Shown: positions 27,692-34,970 of the stretch, one piece after another
How the letters are laid out: each line of letters starts with the position of its first letter
Position numbering within the stretch: the stretch's first letter is position 1
Source: Marinibacterium anthonyi
GTDB taxonomy: Bacteria > Pseudomonadota > Alphaproteobacteria > Rhodobacterales > Rhodobacteraceae
Assembly (NCBI GenBank): GCA_003217735.2
Contig: CP031585.1
Location: 1,227,501-1,291,500 of the forward strand
Reading direction: 5' to 3'
DNA length: 64,000 nt
Position numbers and translations under genes: made by a program
Notes under the pieces: model-generated
Told to the model about the DNA's origin: nothing
Database searches by the model: none
The model's input: only the letters and a program-made list of their open reading frames with translations

Positions 27692-28378
27692 ATGCCCTTG
27701 ACCGCCACGCTCAGTATCATCGTGCCAACTCTGGACGCGGAAAAACATCTGCCCCGCTGTCTGGAGAGCCTGATCGAAGGGCTGACCTCCGGGCTGATCC
27801 GCGATCTCGTCATCACCGACGGCGGCTCCACCGACACAACGGCCGAGATGGCCGATGCCGCCGGCGCCACCCTCGTGACGGGCCCCGCCTCGCGCGGCGG
27901 TCAGCTGCGCCGCGGGGTCGCGGCGGCGCGGGCCGACTGGATCCTGGTGCTGCACGCGGACACGGCGCTGTCGCACGGCTGGTCGCAGGTGGTGATCGAC
28001 CATATCCGCGACCAGGGCGGCCCGGCCCACTTCCGCCTGGCTTACCGCGAAAACGGCCTGATGCCGGCCCTCGTCGCCGGCTGGGCCAACCTGCGCTCGC
28101 AACTCTTCTCGCTGCCCTATGGCGACCAGGGGCTGCTGATGCGCCGCACCGACTACGACGCCGCCGGCGGCTACCCCGACCAGCCGCTGATGGAAGACGT
28201 GGCCCTGGTGCGCGCGCTCCCCCGCCCGCTGGTCCGCCTTGACGCCCAGGCCATCACCAGCGCCGACCGCTACCTGCGCGACGGCTGGATCCGCCGCGGC
28301 CTGCGCAACCTCTGGACCCTGCTGCGCTACCGCCTGGGAACCGACCCAGAACGGCTGGCCCAGGACTACCGCCGCTGA
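27692..28378 (+). CDS. Family 2 glycosyltransferase (TIGR04283-like)
   Basis: The 228-residue GT-A glycosyltransferase has LSIIVPTLDAEKHLPRCLESL, TDGGSTDTT and the metal-binding HADTAL. Acceptor-side blocks GDQGLLMRRTDYDAAGGYP and LMEDVALVRAL follow. It is the short TIGR04283 type, some members of which are implicated in arsenosugar synthesis; no arsenic genes are nearby, so the acceptor is unknown. The ATG at 27692 begins the conserved fold; an in-frame upstream extension is ignored. Confidence 0.82.
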   Translation: MPLTATLSIIVPTLDAEKHLPRCLESLIEGLTSGLIRDLVITDGGSTDTTAEMADAAGATLVTGPASRGGQLRRGVAAARADWILVLHADTALSHGWSQVVIDHIRDQGGPAHFRLAYRENGLMPALVAGWANLRSQLFSLPYGDQGLLMRRTDYDAAGGYPDQPLMEDVALVRALPRPLVRLDAQAITSADRYLRDGWIRRGLRNLWTLLRYRLGTDPERLAQDYRR

Positions 28379-28420: not shown

Positions 28421-28445
28421 GGGGTATTTGGAAAGAGAAAGAAGC
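28421..28445 (+). repeat. Dispersed intergenic repeat, copy 2
   Basis: This is an exact family core (GGGGTATTTGG then AAAGAGAAAGAAGC), 42 bases after the glycosyltransferase stop and in sense orientation to it. Confidence 0.95.
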
Positions 28446-28519
28446 GGCAGATCGCGCCTTTGACAGGCGGTACAAAACGGACAAACCGCGCCGCGATTTT
28501 TGTACAAAACGTCCAATAT

Positions 28520-28583
28520 CTTCTTCTTGGCTCAAATACCCTCGGGGGAGTCCTCCAACGGAGGACGGGGGCAGAGCCCCCTC
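28520..28583 (-). repeat. Long form of the repeat: double hairpin plus GGTATTTG tail
   Basis: Read on the minus strand from the exporter stop it has hairpin A (GGGGGC, 3-base loop, GCCCCC), then hairpin B (GTCCTCC, 3-base loop, GGAGGAC), then CTCCCCCGAGGGTATTTGAG. It matches the element at 34802-34868 nearly base for base, with a covarying pair in hairpin B. Confidence 0.9.
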
Positions 28584-30353
28584 TCAGGCGGCGCCATCCT
28601 GGAACTGCAGCCGGTACAGATCCGCATAGATCCCGCCCCGCGCCAGCAGCTCTTCGTGCGTGCCTTCATCCACCACGCGGCCCTTGTCCATCACCAGGAT
28701 CCGGTCGGCATCGCGGATCGTCGACAAACGGTGTGCGATCACCAGTGTCGTGTGCCCGCCGGCCAGCCGGTCCAGCGCCTGCTGCACCAGTTTCTCGGAC
28801 TGGGTGTCCAGCGCGCTCGTGGCCTCGTCCAGCAGCAGGATCGGCGACTGGCGCAGCAGGGCGCGGGCGATGGCCACCCGTTGCCTTTGCCCGCCCGAGA
28901 GGGCCGAGCCGCGCGGGCCCACCATCGTATCGAGCCCCTGGGGCATCTGCGCCAGGAAATCGCTGACATGGGCGGCGTCCAGAACCTCGGCCAGCTGCGC
29001 GTCCGACACGTCGGTCCGGCCCAGCAGGATGTTCTCGCGCAGGGTCTCGTCGAACAGCAGGGCGTCCTGGCTGACCACCGAGAACAACCCCCGCAGATCG
29101 TCGAGCGCCATGTCACGTACTTCGATCCCGCCAATGCGCACGGATCCTTGCTGCGGATCGACTAGCCGGGTCATCACGTTGAAAAGCGTTGATTTTCCCG
29201 CGCCTGAAGCCCCCACGACCGCGGTGGTCTTGCCGGGCTCGGCACGCAGGGACAGCCCGCGCAGCACTTCGGTGTCGCCGTAGGACAGCGACACGTCGTC
29301 CAGCGCGATGTCGGGCAGGTCGGTGGGCGGGGCGACCGGGTTTTCCGGCGAGGTCAGGGTGACCGGCGCGTCCATCAGGGCCTTGATCCGCTCCATCGCG
29401 GCGGCCGCCACCTGCCAGAGCCCGCTGATCGAGCCGAGCCGCCGGATCGGGTCGAAGGCCAGCCCCATGGCGGTGAAGAAGCTCATGAAATCGCCGACGG
29501 ATTTCTCGCCCGAGATGATCTCGGATCCGCCGAAGACCAGCACCGCCAGGAAGCCCAGGCCGGCAATGATGTCGACCATGCCGGGGATCAGGGCGGATCC
29601 GAAGGCGGCGCGGACCTCGGCATGGACGTAGGCATCGGTCTTTTCGGCGAACCGGTCGGACTGGTAGCGTTCCAGCCGGTTCAGCTTGACCGGCACGATG
29701 CCGTGAAAGACCTCGTCCAGGCGGGTGGCGAGCGATGCGCCCAGGTCGCGGGCCGACCGGGCCTGTCCGCGCACGAAGCGCTGGATCGCGGCGACCGGCA
29801 GCGCCATCAGCGGCACGCCCACCAGCGTGACGGCCGTCCAGCGCCAGTCGATCCCCACGGCCACCGCCATCAGCGCCACCAGCGACACCGCGTCGCGGCC
29901 CGTTCCGGTGATCACCGCGCGCCATACGTCGTTGATTGCATTGACGTCCGTCTGGATCCGCTGGATCAGGAAGCCCGGCGGATGGGCCAGGTGAAAGGCG
30001 CCGTCCTGCTGCATCATCCGCCGCAGCAGATCCACCCGCAGCGCCGCCGCCGTCTGCTGCGAGATCCGGGTGAGGATCACGCTTTTGCTGACGCTGGACA
30101 CCGCGCGGATGGTGAAGATGCCGGTGATGGTCAGCCCCACGCTCCAGATCGCGGCGATGTTGCCGCCGACGAAGACCTTGTCGAACATCGGCTTCATCAT
30201 GTAGCTGAGAGCGCCCAGCATCGACCCTTCGATGGTCATCAACACCAGCGCCACCGCCAGCCAGCCGATATGCGGCTTCAGGTAATCCCGCCAGAGCCAG
30301 CGGAACAGCTGCGGATCGATGGATGTCTTCCCGTCGCTCGGTGCGCCGCTCAT
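28584..30353 (-). CDS. MsbA-like ABC exporter (fused membrane and ATPase domains)
   Basis: The 589-residue half-transporter has six helices in the first 320 residues, with coupling loop IQRIQTDVNAINDVWRAVITG. An ATPase domain follows with Walker A GASGAGKST, Q-loop VVSQDALLF, signature [16 protein letters not shown], Walker B LLLDEATSALD and H-loop VIAHRLSTI. It resembles lipid or drug exporters of the MsbA group. The ATG at 30353 overlaps the upstream phosphatase stop by ATGA, so the longer frame reaching 31052 is a shadow. Translational coupling suggests a shared lipid or glycolipid substrate, which is inference. Confidence 0.9.
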   Translation of the reverse strand: MSGAPSDGKTSIDPQLFRWLWRDYLKPHIGWLAVALVLMTIEGSMLGALSYMMKPMFDKVFVGGNIAAIWSVGLTITGIFTIRAVSSVSKSVILTRISQQTAAALRVDLLRRMMQQDGAFHLAHPPGFLIQRIQTDVNAINDVWRAVITGTGRDAVSLVALMAVAVGIDWRWTAVTLVGVPLMALPVAAIQRFVRGQARSARDLGASLATRLDEVFHGIVPVKLNRLERYQSDRFAEKTDAYVHAEVRAAFGSALIPGMVDIIAGLGFLAVLVFGGSEIISGEKSVGDFMSFFTAMGLAFDPIRRLGSISGLWQVAAAAMERIKALMDAPVTLTSPENPVAPPTDLPDIALDDVSLSYGDTEVLRGLSLRAEPGKTTAVVGASGAGKSTLFNVMTRLVDPQQGSVRIGGIEVRDMALDDLRGLFSVVSQDALLFDETLRENILLGRTDVSDAQLAEVLDAAHVSDFLAQMPQGLDTMVGPRGSALSGGQRQRVAIARALLRQSPILLLDEATSALDTQSEKLVQQALDRLAGGHTTLVIAHRLSTIRDADRILVMDKGRVVDEGTHEELLARGGIYADLYRLQFQDGAA

Positions 30354-31030
30354 GCCGGGGCCTCGCCGGCCTGGAATCGCCGCAGGATGTCCCGGTTGTC
30401 GTATTCCGTGGCGATCCAGTCCTCGAACCCGATCGGCGAAACGGCATTGCGCGCGGCGTAGCAATCCAGCGTGTAATCCAGGATCCCCACCTTGCCGTTG
30501 CGGAAGTGCAGGTAGCGCGGCGACAGCATGCGGCGGGCCTTTTCGACCGGTTCGCCCATGACCACCATCAGGTACATGGCGGCGGCAAAGCCCGCCCGGT
30601 CGGCGCCGGATTTGCAGTGCATCAGGAAGGGTTTGTCCAGAGTCTTGAGCTTGTGGATCACGTCCAGGATGTCGTCGCGCACCGCCGCGTCGCGGGCCAG
30701 CAGGCGGGCGTTGACCAGGGTCAGGCCCAGCTCGCGGCAGGCCTCTTCCTCGAACAGGAAATGCGCCGCGTCGGTCTGGCCGCGCAGGTTCAGCACCGTG
30801 GTGATGCCCATGTCCTTCATCTTCTGGAACCGGGCCCGCGTGGGATTGTTCGACCGGTAGACGCCCGGCGCCACCTGGTCGAAATTGGTCCAGATCCCGC
30901 GCAGGATCTCGTGGTCGAACCACAGCGTGTAGATCCGCGACTTGCGGCGGTTCTCGGGGGTCGAGAGATCGGAGTTGTAATACGCCCGGATCCGGCCTTC
31001 CCAGTCTTTCAGCCGTTTTCCCAGGCCCAT
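30350..31030 (-). CDS. Dual-specificity phosphatase-like protein (fused DSP-PTPase/NAD kinase-like family)
   Basis: The 226-residue product has the Cys phosphatase loop HCKSGADRAG and an upstream GITTVLNLRGQTD. The long C-terminal segment LSPRYLHFRNGKVGILDY is characteristic of the PTP-NADK-like family. The start at 31030 places GAGAGG 9 bases upstream; the ATG at 31039 sits too close to it. It overlaps the ABC exporter gene by 4 bases. It probably dephosphorylates a cell-envelope precursor handled by the exporter; protein dephosphorylation is the alternative. Confidence 0.83.
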   Translation of the reverse strand: MGLGKRLKDWEGRIRAYYNSDLSTPENRRKSRIYTLWFDHEILRGIWTNFDQVAPGVYRSNNPTRARFQKMKDMGITTVLNLRGQTDAAHFLFEEEACRELGLTLVNARLLARDAAVRDDILDVIHKLKTLDKPFLMHCKSGADRAGFAAAMYLMVVMGEPVEKARRMLSPRYLHFRNGKVGILDYTLDCYAARNAVSPIGFEDWIATEYDNRDILRRFQAGEAPA

Positions 31031-31172
31031 CTCGTGCATCCTCTCGTGTCACCGGTGCCGGCTGCCCGGGAAACGGGCAGGCGGGCGCAGATCCCCTGGC
31101 GTGCGTCTTCGGGGCGGATTGACCTTGCCCGCCTTGCCGCTAGGGTGCCCGGCGCTATTACAGGAACGTTCC

Positions 31173-32381
31173 ATGACATCCAAGCCAAGCCTTCGCCAAG
31201 GCCGCCCCTACCTGGCCATCCCCGGGCCCTCCGTCATGCCCGACCGGGTGCTGCAGGCCATGCACCGGCCCGCGCCCAACATATATGCCGGAGAGCTGCA
31301 TGACATCACCCGCAGCCTGGCGCCCGACCTGAAGCGGGTCGCGCGCACGGATCACCACGTGGCGATCTACATCGGCAACGGTCACGCCGCGTGGGAAGCC
31401 GCGCTGGCGAACGTGCTGGCGCCCGGCGACAAGGTGCTGGTGCCGGCCACGGGCCGCTTCGGCATGGGCTGGGCGGACATGGCCGTGGGGCTTGGCGCCG
31501 ATCCGCAGATCCTGGACTTCGGGCGGCAGGACCCCTGGGACCTGGACCGCGTCGCCGAGGCGCTGAAGGCCGATGAAGCGCACGAGCTGAAGGCGGTGCT
31601 GGCGGTCTACGTGGATACGTCGAGTTCGATCCGCAACGACGTGGCCGGTCTGCGCAAGGTCCTGGATGAAACCGGGCACCCGGCGCTGTTGATGGTGGAT
31701 TGCATCGCGGCGATGGGCTGCGACGTCTTCGAGATGGACGGCTGGGGCGTCGACGTGGCGGTCACCGGATCGCAGAAGGGGCTGATGACGCCGCCGGGTC
31801 TGGGGTTCGTGTTCTTCAACGACAAGGCCGACGCGGTGCGCAGGACGCTGCCGCGCGTCAGCCGGTACTGGGACTGGTCGCCGCGGGCCAACCCGCAGGA
31901 ATATTACCAGAATTTCGCCGGCACCGCCCCGACCCACCACATCTATGGTCTGCGCGCCGCACTGGACATGATCCACGAGGAAGGGATCGACAACGTCTGG
32001 GCCCGCCACGAGGTTCTGGCCCGCGCCGTCTGGGCCGCGGTCGAGGCCTGGGGGCAGGGTGGACCGCTGGCGCTGAACATGGCCGATCCTGCCCACCGGT
32101 CGCACGCTGTGACCGCGCTGCGCATCGGCGCGCCCCATGGCACGGCCCTGCGCACCTGGGTCGAGGAGAACCTGGGCCTGACGCTGGGCATCGGCCTCGG
32201 CATGGCGGCGCCCGGCGATCCGGCCTGGCACGGGTTCTTCCGGCTGGGGCACATGGGCCATGTCAACGGGCACATGATCCTGGGTCTGCTGGGCGGAATC
32301 GACGCCGGGCTGAAAGCGCTGGAGATCCCGCATGGGGATGGCGCGCTCGAGGCGGCCTCGCGGGTGATCGCGGGGGCCTGA
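31173..32381 (+). CDS. Class V aminotransferase (serine-glyoxylate aminotransferase-like)
   Basis: The 402-residue PLP enzyme has YLAIPGPSVMPDRVLQAMHRPAP at the start and IGNGHAAWEAALANVLAPGD near the phosphate site. The PLP lysine lies in VTGSQKGLMTPPG and the C-terminal block is FFRLGHMGHVNGHMILGLLG. This matches serine-glyoxylate or alanine-glyoxylate aminotransferases. AGGAA lies 7 bases before the ATG. It is the only plus-strand gene between two minus-strand genes, followed by a repeat copy. Confidence 0.88.
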   Translation: MTSKPSLRQGRPYLAIPGPSVMPDRVLQAMHRPAPNIYAGELHDITRSLAPDLKRVARTDHHVAIYIGNGHAAWEAALANVLAPGDKVLVPATGRFGMGWADMAVGLGADPQILDFGRQDPWDLDRVAEALKADEAHELKAVLAVYVDTSSSIRNDVAGLRKVLDETGHPALLMVDCIAAMGCDVFEMDGWGVDVAVTGSQKGLMTPPGLGFVFFNDKADAVRRTLPRVSRYWDWSPRANPQEYYQNFAGTAPTHHIYGLRAALDMIHEEGIDNVWARHEVLARAVWAAVEAWGQGGPLALNMADPAHRSHAVTALRIGAPHGTALRTWVEENLGLTLGIGLGMAAPGDPAWHGFFRLGHMGHVNGHMILGLLGGIDAGLKALEIPHGDGALEAASRVIAGA

Positions 32382-32417
32382 CACCCGGGCCGTCGCGTCC
32401 TTGGCAGGGCGGGCGCC

Positions 32418-32442
32418 GGGGTATTTGGAAAGAGAAAGAAGC
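32418..32442 (+). repeat. Dispersed intergenic repeat, copy 3
   Basis: This is an exact core copy 36 bases after the class V aminotransferase stop, in its sense orientation, and 12 bases before the stop of the convergent small membrane gene. Confidence 0.95.
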
Positions 32443-32454
32443 AGCAGGGCGGCG

Positions 32455-32670
32455 TCAGTCGTCGACCTGCTGGACATGCGCCGTACGGGCGCCGGGGCGG
32501 GTCGCGGCAAAGCGGTCGATGCCGTAGTTGAGACCCAGCGCCAGCAGGATCACGGCGACGAAGCCCAGCAGCGACCAGGTCGCGCAGAAGATCCAGAACA
32601 GGTTGACGCCGAGCATGGTGAGCGCGGCATTGGTGTAGTCGGGGGCCGACGGGCGGTCATCTGACGACAT
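32455..32670 (-). CDS. Small single-helix or hairpin membrane protein
   Basis: The 71-residue product has a hydrophobic core (MLGVNLFWIFCATWSLLGFVAVILLALGLNYG, about residues 19-50) that can form one long or two short helices. Its tails are polar. AAGGAC sits well before the ATG at 32670, so the much longer frame upstream is ignored. No family is recognised. It lies 109 bases downstream of the aminotransferase gene on the same strand. Confidence 0.7.
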   Translation of the reverse strand: MSSDDRPSAPDYTNAALTMLGVNLFWIFCATWSLLGFVAVILLALGLNYGIDRFAATRPGARTAHVQQVDD

Positions 32671-32779
32671 GGGCGGGTCCTTGCGAGCTTGGACCGACTG
32701 TAATCCCGTCTGTGTGTTTGTCAGGTAAATTTCCGCGGATGGCCCCCGTGTGCCCGCGCGATGGCCGGTCAGGCCCGCG

Positions 32780-33886
32780 TCAAGCGCGGGCCGCTGCCAG
32801 AGCTTTGGGCAATGCGGCGTCAAATGCATCCAGATCGGCCGGTGTTCCGCAGCTGACGCGGATGCAGCGGTTCTGCGGCGCGACGAAGGGCATGCGGACA
32901 AAGATGCCCTGCGCAATCAGCCCGTCCAGCACGGCCTTGGCAAAGACACTGTCGGCGCCGCAATCGATCGCCACGAAATTGGTGGCCGAGGGCAGGGGCG
33001 TCAACCCGTTGTCCTTGGCGATGGCGGCGATGCGGTCGCGGGCGGTCGCGATTTCGCCCTGCACATGGGCCAGCCAGTCGGTATCGGCCAGTGCCGCCAG
33101 CGCGCCGGCCTGGCCCATCCGATTGACGCCGAAGTGGTTGCGCACCTTGTTGAAGGCCTGGATCAGGTCCCGGTGTCCCAGCGCATAGCCCAACCGCGCG
33201 CCGGCCATGCCATAGGCCTTGGAAAAGGTCCGCATGCGGATCACCCTGGGGTCGTCGACGGGCAGCGGCAGGGCCGCCGCCGCCGGGGCGCATTCGATAT
33301 AGGCCTCGTCCAGGATCAGCAGCGTGCCGTCGGGCAGCGCATCCATGGCGCGGGCGATGCTGTCGCCACTGACCCAGCTGCCCATCGGGTTGTCGGGATT
33401 GGCCAGATAGACGAGCTTGGCGTCGACCTCGGCTGCCTTGGCGAACAATGCCTGCGCGTCCTCGGCGTCGTCCTTGTAGGGGACCTTGTGCAGCGTGCCG
33501 CCGAAGCCTGCCACGTGGTAGTTGAACGTCGGGTAGGCCCCGTCCGAGGTCACCACCGCGTCGCCCGGTTCCACCAGCAGCCGCACGATGGATCCAAGCA
33601 GCCCGTCGATGCCTTCGCCGACGGTGATCTGGTCGGGCGTCACGCCGTGATGGGCGGCCAGCGCCTGGCGCAGGTCGTGGCTTTCGGGATCGGCGTAGCA
33701 CCAGATGCTTTCGGCCGCGTCCTGCATGGCCCTGATCGCGCGTGGCGAGGGTCCGAAGACGTTTTCATTTGCCCCGAGACGGGCGACGAAGGCTTGGCCT
33801 CGGGCGCGTTCCTGAGCCTCCGGCCCCACGAAGGGAACGGTGGCGGGCAGGGTGTCGGCCAGGCCTGTGTAACGGGGCGTTTTCAT
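32780..33886 (-). CDS. Class I/II aminotransferase, HisC-like
   Basis: The 368-residue PLP enzyme has LGANENVFGPSPRA at the N-terminus, YLANPDNPMGS in the substrate loop, ILDEAYIE and the PLP lysine in RTFSKAYGMAGARLGY. The C-terminal FVRMPFVAPQNRCIRVSCGTP follows. These are hallmarks of histidinol-phosphate aminotransferase and related aromatic aminotransferases. No other his gene is nearby, so a role in aromatic amino-acid metabolism is equally possible. GAGGCG precedes the ATG. Confidence 0.87.
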   Translation of the reverse strand: MKTPRYTGLADTLPATVPFVGPEAQERARGQAFVARLGANENVFGPSPRAIRAMQDAAESIWCYADPESHDLRQALAAHHGVTPDQITVGEGIDGLLGSIVRLLVEPGDAVVTSDGAYPTFNYHVAGFGGTLHKVPYKDDAEDAQALFAKAAEVDAKLVYLANPDNPMGSWVSGDSIARAMDALPDGTLLILDEAYIECAPAAAALPLPVDDPRVIRMRTFSKAYGMAGARLGYALGHRDLIQAFNKVRNHFGVNRMGQAGALAALADTDWLAHVQGEIATARDRIAAIAKDNGLTPLPSATNFVAIDCGADSVFAKAVLDGLIAQGIFVRMPFVAPQNRCIRVSCGTPADLDAFDAALPKALAAARA

Positions 33887-34011
33887 GGCGCCTCATAGAT
33901 CGGGAATTTCACGTCATCAAGAGGTCTTGAACGCTGGAAATGACCCCGCGTTCCGGTGGACGCGGAAGGCCCCTGTCGCCAAGCTGCGAGCGACAAGCGG
34001 GAGGAGGCAAC

Positions 34012-34794
34012 ATGGCACGCGTTTCGATTGCGTATGAGGATCACGTCGCGACGGTGACCCTGACACGGGGCGACAAGATGAACGCCCTGGACGACGAGAT
34101 GGTGCAGGCGATCCTGGATGCCGGTGCAGAGGTCGCGGCCTCGGACGCCCGCGCCGTTGTGCTGACGGGGGAGGGCAAGAGCTTTTGTGCCGGGCTGGAT
34201 GTGGCGAGCTTTGCCAAGATGGCGGGGATGGACGTGGAAAGCTGGCTGATGGAACGGACCCATGACGACGCCAACGCCATGCAGGAAGTCGGGCTGACCT
34301 GGCGCCGGGTCCCGGTGCCGGTGATCGCGGCACTGAAGGGGGCGGTCTTTGGCGGCGGTCTGCAACTGGCGCTGGGGGCGGATATCCGGATTGCATCCGC
34401 CGACGTGAAGATGGCGGTGATGGAGATGAAATGGGGCCTGATCCCGGACATGGGCGGCATGGCGCTGCTGCCGGCGCTGATGCGGTCGGACGTGCTGCGC
34501 CTGCTGACCTACACGGCGCGGCCCATCGGGGCGGACCAGGCGGAACGCTGGGGGCTGGTGACCCAGGTCTGCGACGATCCGCTGGCCGAGGCACAGGCAC
34601 TGGCCGCCAAGATCGCGGGCCAGAGCCCTTCCGCCATCCGCGCGGCCAAGCGGCTGATCGGCGTGGCGGAGACCGAGCCCAGGGCAAAAGTGCTGCTCTC
34701 CGAGAGCCGGGAGCAGATCGGGCTGATCGGCAAGGCGGACCAGATGGAGGTCGTGGCTGCGCAGATGCAGGGGCGGGCACCGGTTTTCAAGTGA
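34012..34794 (+). CDS. Enoyl-CoA hydratase/isomerase family protein
   Basis: The 260-residue crotonase-fold protein has GEGKSFCAGLDVASF and FGGGLQLALGADIRIA as oxyanion-hole loops, and MEMKWGLIPDMGG where the catalytic acid segment lies. GGAGG lies 7 bases before the ATG at 34012. It probably acts in fatty-acid or branched-chain acyl-CoA breakdown. It is divergent from the HisC-like gene and is followed by the long form of the dispersed repeat. Confidence 0.9.
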   Translation: MARVSIAYEDHVATVTLTRGDKMNALDDEMVQAILDAGAEVAASDARAVVLTGEGKSFCAGLDVASFAKMAGMDVESWLMERTHDDANAMQEVGLTWRRVPVPVIAALKGAVFGGGLQLALGADIRIASADVKMAVMEMKWGLIPDMGGMALLPALMRSDVLRLLTYTARPIGADQAERWGLVTQVCDDPLAEAQALAAKIAGQSPSAIRAAKRLIGVAETEPRAKVLLSESREQIGLIGKADQMEVVAAQMQGRAPVFK

Positions 34795-34801
34795 GTCTTC
34801 C

Positions 34802-34868
34802 ATCAGGGGGCGCTGCCCCCGTCCGCCAAGGGCGGACTCCCCCGGAGGTATTTGGAACAAGGTGAAGG
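34802..34868 (+). repeat. Long form of the repeat: double hairpin plus GGTATTTGG tail
   Basis: Hairpin A (GGGGGC, GCT, GCCCCC; 34806-34820) is followed directly by hairpin B (GTCCGCC, AAG, GGCGGAC; 34821-34837), then TCCCCCGGAGGTATTTGGAA and a degenerate purine tail. It starts 7 bases after the enoyl-CoA hydratase stop, in sense orientation. The 568-base spacer to valS also holds degenerate repeat ends near 34888 and the copy at 34945. Confidence 0.9.
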
Positions 34869-34944: not shown

Positions 34945-34970
34945 GCTTCTTTCTCTTCCAAAATACCCGG
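34945..34970 (-). repeat. Dispersed intergenic repeat, copy 4
   Basis: On the minus strand it reads CCGGGTATTTTGG then AAGAGAAAGAAGC. It is downstream of, and sense to, the minus-strand valS side of the spacer. Confidence 0.92.

Follow-up and report, generated by a model that had tools for sequence, protein, structure and literature searches.

Potential intrastrand triplex (PIT) elements were reportedly described in Escherichia coli and other genomes by Hoyne, Maher and colleagues in about 2000-2002. These elements are multi-copy and mostly intergenic, and one strand combines a hairpin with a mirror-ordered third segment joined by short loops. Here, we analyse a repeat with the same layout (a purine arm, its Watson-Crick partner, a mirror-ordered third segment and short loops) that occurs twice in a window of Marinibacterium anthonyi, by which we mean the whole stretch of 64,000 nt that was analysed (contig C1:1227501-1291500 of the 6.81 Mb genome G000, hereafter the own genome). 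The repeat consists of hairpin A (GGGGGC-NNN-GCCCCC), whose pyrimidine arm we call arm C1 (not to be confused with contig C1), followed by hairpin B, which varies, another run of C (C2), GAGGTATTT and a purine tail. In contrast to PIT elements, it has another sequence and another host, is found order-wide, carries a covarying linker hairpin and has natural asymmetric variants that support the third strand; we know of no covariation test for PIT elements.

Two further systems are similar in part. The element for nuclear expression (ENE) of MALAT1 and PAN likewise has a third strand in a hairpin groove at the 3' end of an RNA; however, it is rich in U.A-U and binds a poly(A) tract, whereas our repeat has a bacterial host and a C2 that places mostly C along G. 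Intrinsic terminators share with the repeat a GC-rich hairpin past the stop codon that is followed by UAUUU. Their criterion of a stable hairpin with an immediate U-tract is, however, passed by only 12 of 52 elements in sense orientation after a stop codon, the other 40 being without an adequate U-tract, and C2 and the tail are more conserved than termination requires.

Repetitive extragenic palindromic (REP) elements avoid divergent regions and are enriched between converging genes, and the CGTC families, which predominate in alphaproteobacteria, have no dedicated transposase (passages of PMC3733652). Our repeat resembles REP elements in being a short palindromic repeat near 3' ends, located between convergent or tandem genes and often arranged as inverted pairs (passages of PMC3733652), and it shares with the CGTC families a placement in multiple copies 3' of genes in convergent and tandem regions. 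In contrast to REP elements, it has two hairpins and a candidate third strand, and it has neither an unpaired GTAG or CGTC tag nor a CCA tail: no conserved GTAG stands at the hairpin base in an alignment of 35 copies. The CGTC families are recognised by an unpaired CGTC, a stem of 8-9 bp with A/T first pairs, a loop of 4-5 nt and a CCA tail (passages of PMC3733652), whereas in our repeat GTC is paired within hairpin B, the loops are mostly 3 nt and the element does not end in CCA. The element behaves and sits like a REP without a transposase, and it fails both the GTAG and the CGTC tag tests.

The text of PMC3733652, figures aside, does not mention Rhodobacter, Ruegeria, Roseobacter or Paracoccus. 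For Rhodobacter sphaeroides, the passages used of a study on 3' ends enriched in a PNPase mutant report no motif (PMC7866481), and those of a study on small RNAs derived from untranslated regions describe the prediction of terminators with TransTermHP (PMC8625941). A literature search by element strings and by words, which mostly did not cover subscription papers, brought up no description that we recognised.

C2 follows hairpin A in length and in mirror order

On balance, we consider it probable that this is a REP-like repeat of gene 3' ends, specific to Rhodobacterales, and that selection maintains its core in the form of an intrastrand triple helix. In the proposed structure, the purine arm of hairpin A would pair with its own pyrimidine arm C1, and C2, joined via a 3-nt linker or hairpin B, would run parallel along the same purine arm. 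The argument rests on the order of bases in C2: as ordinary pairing needs the reverse order, a parallel C2 points to an intrastrand triple helix. That C2 mirrors hairpin A is the key feature of the element and was missed in the first reading.

To compare the two orders, we used variants with asymmetric arms. Three pattern searches in 394 genomes of the family, which prescribed the arm and C1 but allowed any C2, yielded 11, 56 and 71 matches (138 in total; reversed controls 0). From these, 71 were fetched as loci, 9 with symmetric and 62 with asymmetric arms. Where the purine arm contains an A, C2 bears the matching base in parallel order, e.g. GGGGGA to CCCCCT or GAGGG to CTCCC. The parallel order is the better fit in 56 of these 62 variants and the antiparallel order in one, with no difference between the two in five; the match is complete in 49 for the parallel order and in three for the antiparallel order. 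The 49 perfect parallel matches comprise ten arm types and come from 37 genomes, each of a different genus by our hand count, or from 35 genomes without the ties L475 and L481, which match in antiparallel order too. Examples of perfect arm and C2 pairs are GGGGGAG/CCCCCTC, GGGGAGGG/CCCCTCCC, GGGGGAGGG/CCCCCTCCC and GAGAGGG/CTCTCCC. In the 70 matches that are parallel at all or all but one position, C2 has T 67 times, A nine times and G once opposite an arm A, and C 366 times and another base seven times opposite an arm G. C2 sequences that do not match include CCCACCC, which occurs in three genera along the symmetric arm GGGAGGG, as well as CCCCCAC, CCGCCTC, CCCCCTT and CTCTC; further misses occur in several elements whose outer arm bases are apparently paired by chance. 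An antiparallel partner for C2 was found within 150 nt in 4/49 elements, compared to 3/49 in the control. In 39 of 45 distinct sequences without hairpin B, exactly 3 nt separate C1 from C2; hairpin B, if present, occupies this linker.

The length of C2 follows hairpin A as well. In 169 elements of other genomes, the run lengths of C1 and C2 are five and five in 111 cases and six and six in 30. The G-run, C1 and C2 rise together, with a Spearman correlation of 0.62 between the G-run and C2. To remove the effect of shared descent, we repeated the comparison within genomes. Three of the six genomes searched were fully listed and had longer G-runs (G007, G022 and G008); left out were G004, which is complete and has no longer G-runs, and G018 and G020, whose lists were incomplete. 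The three genomes contain 110 elements, and 97 of these have a clear C2 boundary; the 13 elements that were dropped have a C2 preceded by G or C, and one of them has an extended hairpin A and a C2 of 7. We found a C2 of at least 6 in 10/10 elements whose A stem is extended by a G-C pair, compared to 2/87 of the others, and this was reached by 0/20000 within-genome permutations. In elements that have gained only the G or only the C of such a pair, C2 remains at 5 in 14/15 cases.

Hairpin B stays paired while its sequence changes

The pattern CTCCCCCN{2,4}GTATTTG has 35 exact matches in the own genome (reversed control 0). In the alignment of these 35 copies, four of the seven stem-B pairs show changes on both sides. 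The alignment contains 19 double-change cells (helix A included) compared to 4.5 in shuffles, and none of 500 shuffles reached this number. A covariance-model search had been proposed in the first-pass annotation of the window; with a model built from the 35 copies, it resulted in 102 matches at E<=0.001 in the own genome. In addition, a pattern that leaves hairpin B free yielded 133 elements from other genomes and viral contigs, where the 13 viral contigs served only as added sequences for the hairpin B and run-length tests. The insert is at least 12 nt long in 90 of these elements, and 76 of the 90 have a stem of at least 5 bp, compared to 15% of shuffles. In the remaining 43 elements, the insert is shorter and almost always too small to contain hairpin B.

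Many element sites are common to two species. From the sister species G002, we fetched 50 loci that hold 53 of its 91 listed model matches; as these loci were chosen for holding the element, empty sites could not show up among them. In 39 of the 50 loci, the flanking DNA is shared with one of 74 element loci of the own genome, and 36 of the 41 own loci matched to G002 show the element in the same orientation. In 25 of the 39 pairs compared, each side could be parsed into a single hairpin B of at least 5 bp. The B arms are identical in four of these, share the same core in one and differ in 20, and all are still paired. Selection on single-strand structure, as the first-pass annotation had put forward, is thus strongly supported by a stem B that remains paired despite the turnover of its sequence.

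Stem B has dialects at the same sites, which are of the GTCC type in the own genome and of the GTCG type in about half of the G002 copies; the fourth base of the B arm is G in 0/25 own copies vs 11/25 G002 copies (our count). These dialects suggest concerted change between the dispersed copies of a genome, and template-switch correction could contribute to hairpin B. The loops of hairpin B are mostly 3 nt long (44/55 own copies), and neither UNCG nor GNRA was found among the 4-nt loops. Triloops of the form TNC vs GNA occur in 34 vs 3 of 49 copies in other genera, 14 vs 1 of 40 in G002 and 5 vs 4 of 44 in the own genome. As the own genome shows no TNC excess, we do not use this bias as evidence.

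The two copies in the window

Both copies have hairpins A and B, C2, GAGGG/GGAGGTATTTG and a purine-rich tail. C2 is listed as the proposed third strand by the rule derived from other copies, as the arm is a homopolymer in both. The features are as follows.

28586-28584, minus strand: stop codon before copy 1
28567..28581, minus strand: hairpin A of copy 1, with GGGGG-C arm, TCT loop and G-CCCCC arm (arm C1), i.e. GGGGGC-TCT-GCCCCC
28550..28566, minus strand: hairpin B of copy 1, in the linker, GTCCTCC-GTT-GGAGGAC
28544..28548, minus strand: C2 of copy 1, CCCCC, proposed third strand
to 28533, minus strand: segment GAGGGTATTTG after C2 of copy 1
28520..28543, minus strand: tail of copy 1, GAGGGTATTTGAGCCAAGAAGAAG
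28423..28444, plus strand: second-type tail GGTATTTGGAAAGAGAAAGAAG facing copy 1, 3' of a convergent gene that ends at 28378
28584..30353, minus strand: ABC exporter gene upstream of copy 1, with ABC_tran and ABC_membrane domains
34792-34794, plus strand: stop codon before copy 2
34806..34820, plus strand: hairpin A of copy 2, with GGGGG-C arm, GCT loop and G-CCCCC arm (arm C1)
34821..34837, plus strand: hairpin B of copy 2, GTCCGCC-AAG-GGCGGAC
34839..34843, plus strand: C2 of copy 2, CCCCC, proposed third strand
to 34854, plus strand: segment GGAGGTATTTG after C2 of copy 2
34844..34868, plus strand: tail of copy 2, GGAGGTATTTGGAACAAGGTGAAGG
34946..34967, minus strand: second-type tail facing copy 2 from the opposite side
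34012..34794, plus strand: enoyl-CoA hydratase-type gene upstream of copy 2, with ECH_1 domain

The first-pass annotation had reported these two copies with their shared hairpins and tail, the identities of the two upstream genes and a double change in hairpin B. The observation itself is confirmed: both copies lie at the stated coordinates, the pattern matches given above exceed chance, the domains agree with the gene names, and a T-A pair at 28562/28554 of copy 1 corresponds to a G-C pair at 34825/34833 of copy 2. Its interpretation is partly supported, as set out below. Taken alone, the folding energies of the window copies are unexceptional (z -1.33 and -1.26). A mini-hairpin C (CCC/GGG) is predicted in the fold of copy 1 (one copy).

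The orthologous sites of both genes carry the element in G001 and G002. For the ABC exporter, the 220 nt analysed at 12 loci of best matches from other genera contain no element with hairpins A and B, and a bare GAGTATTT is present in G016 only; for the hydratase, two of the ten best matches from other genera (G007 and G018) have the tail only. Several of these matches are distant (47-65% identical), so their orthology is not assured.

Copy number and host range

Copy numbers per genome range from tens to roughly a hundred. With stricter filters, the covariance model matches 20/41 genomes (the own genome included), i.e. 20/25 genomes of the same family and 0/16 of other alphaproteobacterial families. 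A scan of a genome collection found at least 119 stretches with the element; among the 80 that are titled, 77 names belong to Rhodobacterales by our reading, without individual look-up, and the others are two unplaced alphaproteobacterial bins and one Enemella contig. The element on this Enemella evansiae contig (L289) is a typical one and probably reflects contamination from Rhodobacterales, as E. evansiae is an actinobacterium.

Within the own genome, nearly all matches are located on the 5.56 Mb contig C1, and among contigs C2-C13 only C8 contains any (3/102). The smaller replicons thus carry few copies. Searches with a 75-base query, which has low reach, resulted in no match among phage records and one Salipiger match among plasmid records. 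A search of the window against Rfam at the gathering score yielded one tRNA only, and four element loci searched at E<=5 gave one weak match outside the element.

Placement, orientation and terminators

Placement was analysed for the 74 best own copies with our own open reading frame caller, which called 438 genes in 464 kb. We observed 34 copies between convergent genes, 18 in tandem regions in sense, 17 in tandem regions in antisense, four in divergent regions and one in coding sequence. The intergenic background (at least 60 nt, n=224) has 32 convergent, 127 tandem and 65 divergent regions; the copies are thus enriched between convergent genes and scarce in divergent regions. The first-pass annotation had described a sense orientation after a stop codon. 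This is true of the two copies in the window and of 52 of the 73 non-coding copies examined, where hairpin A begins a median 9.5 nt past the stop, but not for the tandem pairs, where sense and antisense are nearly balanced (18 vs 17). Equal occurrence in coding sequence and either orientation, or a lack of compensatory changes, had been named there as evidence against the claim: the changes are found genome-wide and only 1/74 copies is coding, whereas the orientation is not strictly sense.

The suggestion that the element is a terminator variant is not well supported, as only 12/52 elements pass the hairpin-plus-U-tract rule. Ordinary terminators (hairpin and U-tract within 220 nt) were found 3' of 18/52 elements, 28/84 tail-less convergent gene ends and 25/210 random stretches, and they are thus not depleted 3' of the element. 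From these similar rates, we conclude that the element neither clearly replaces nor needs ordinary terminators.

Tails, extensions and dialects

Other GC-rich stretches are followed by a tail of a second type, GGTATTTGGAAAGAGAAAGAAGCAG, which is often found opposite the first type and facing it. A reversed tail is present within 260 nt downstream of 21/34 convergent, 8/17 tandem antisense and 4/18 tandem sense copies. Beyond the two element tails, the window has nine G[GA]TATTT sites: 25544(-), 25639(-), 28423(+), 32420(+), 34909(-), 34967(-), 38621(+), 43612(+) and 49731(-). Seven of the nine bear the second tail (G)GTATTTNNAAAGAGAAAGAAGC or a close form behind GC-rich stretches; 34909 does not and 25544 does so partly. 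We do not favour a DNA-uptake sequence, as with 243 tails in 6.8 Mb the copies are scarce, and they are located at gene ends.

Some tails are followed by an extension of about 50 nt, which lies at about 28455-28520 (-) in the window and is also present in L005, L007, L014, L017, L021, L022 and L027. It holds two GTTTTGTAC-like motifs, GTTTTGTACAAAA ... TTTGTCCGTTTTGTAC. Tails and arm types form dialects per genome of the family, such as CAAGATGAAG in G057 vs CCAAGAAGAAG in G105, and G298 has nine matches of the GAGGGC variant. These dialects look as if the element co-evolved with a factor or was homogenised.

Alternative explanations

The run lengths alone first led us to favour a switch between two Watson-Crick pairings, in which the G-run pairs with either C1 or C2 as a terminator or anti-terminator. 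Such a switch accounts for the three-way length matching, the fold between the G-run and C2 is about 4-5 kcal/mol costlier than hairpins A and B (six examples), and C2 ends about 7-10 nt before UUU, which is a common spacing for terminators. However, a switch predicts that C2 is the reverse complement of the arm, and the asymmetric variants, 56 of 62 better in parallel and one better in antiparallel order, largely refute it; we now regard it as very unlikely. Ordinary REP-like hairpins that act as an intrinsic terminator of the mRNA or as a barrier to 3' exonucleases, with C2 as mere sequence context, would explain the 3'-end placement at a median 9.5 nt past the stop in 52 sense copies and the bidirectional arrangements between convergent genes. 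They leave the mirror order of C2 unexplained, and the rarity of U-tracts (12/52), the undepleted downstream terminators (18/52 vs 28/84) and the antisense orientation of 17/35 tandem copies also speak against them, so that we consider hairpins alone unlikely.

Two further explanations concern how the copies arose. The first-pass annotation considered a REP-like element moved by an unseen protein, and a non-autonomous mobile element spread by a transposase (a REP, a REP doublet forming hairpins, REPIN, or a miniature inverted-repeat transposable element, MITE) is suggested by the high copy number, the intergenic location, the inverted pairs, the tail dialects per genome and the 50-nt extension that some copies share. 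The REP-like distribution stands. The mover found no support: the Y1 transposase of REP elements (RAYT; PF01797) has no match in G000, G001 or G002, it is present in 2/25 genomes of the family that hold just 2 and 1 element matches, and 39/50 fetched G002 loci, in a sample chosen for element presence, share their flanks with own loci. Recent mobility is not the main story, and we rate a mobile element as highly improbable. Alternatively, the correction of quasi-palindromes by template switching might keep the hairpins perfect without selection, in line with a hairpin B that was replaced and is yet paired at shared sites (20/25 parsed pairs, of 39 examined). Template switching is generally known to yield inverted rather than mirror repeats; mirror repeats are not produced by template switching or by protein dimer sites. 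It thus leaves the parallel C2 unexplained, as well as the placement at gene ends, and we attach hardly any probability to such an artefact.

The proposed triple helix in RNA or DNA

From the patterns of bases and run lengths, we infer both the formation of a triple helix, in RNA or DNA, and the role of the element. Transcription or replication would expose one strand as a single strand and so allow folding. By halting a polymerase or a nuclease, the folded element may then mark or block a gene boundary, both at 3' ends and where genes converge; protection of the mRNA 3' end and separation of supercoiled domains are other possible effects. In mRNA, a pyrimidine-motif triplex of C+.G-C and U.A-U would protect the 3' end, whereas in DNA the complementary strand would give a purine-motif G.G-C triplex without the need for acid pH. 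The sense-strand C+.G-C / U.A-U triplex is parallel and forms preferentially at acid pH. The triplex of the purine motif (G.G-C together with A.A-T or T.A-T) is antiparallel and stable at neutral pH with Mg2+. Given a triple helix, we see slightly less than an even chance for the DNA form and hold the mRNA form to be possible, if doubtful. This lean to DNA, which is no proof, is based on the purine motif, which needs no acid pH, and on the unbiased orientation in tandem regions. We lowered it from an even chance because five of the nine positions with A opposite A lie in chance-lengthened arms. The position just past stop codons suits RNA and DNA alike.

Several points weigh against the triple helix as proposed here. 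In the window copies and in most elements, the arms are homopolymers, where parallel and antiparallel order are indistinguishable, and the asymmetric matches are not independent events, as some variants are shared by descent. L432, a variant with hairpin B, fits the antiparallel order better. Among the nine positions with A opposite A, the five in chance-lengthened arms belong to L435, L438, L462, L463 and L471, and four are real exceptions (L426, L434, L436 and L454), which only the purine motif accommodates, where the complementary strand has T. The RNA form is made less likely by the expected instability of five to six C+.G-C triplets at neutral pH. Furthermore, 21/73 copies have no preceding sense stop codon, and the orientation relative to replication is only weakly biased (p=0.06).

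Triple helices are easily drawn and hard to prove in living cells. The many natural asymmetric variants provide an evolutionary test of a triple helix, like covariation does for RNA stems, and the many copies per genome give ample material for tests in marine bacteria. If the triple helix forms, few natural examples from bacteria would have comparably good support. Only tentatively do we suggest that a bacterial order marks its gene ends with an evolved triple helix that shows three-base covariation and has an exchangeable linker hairpin. If true, this would be a bacterial gene-end element with a triple helix demonstrated by covariation, i.e. either a bacterial counterpart of the triple-helix protection of RNA 3' ends or a DNA triplex that keeps transcription units apart, and it would offer a structural handle on how neighbouring genes are separated in Roseobacter-type bacteria.

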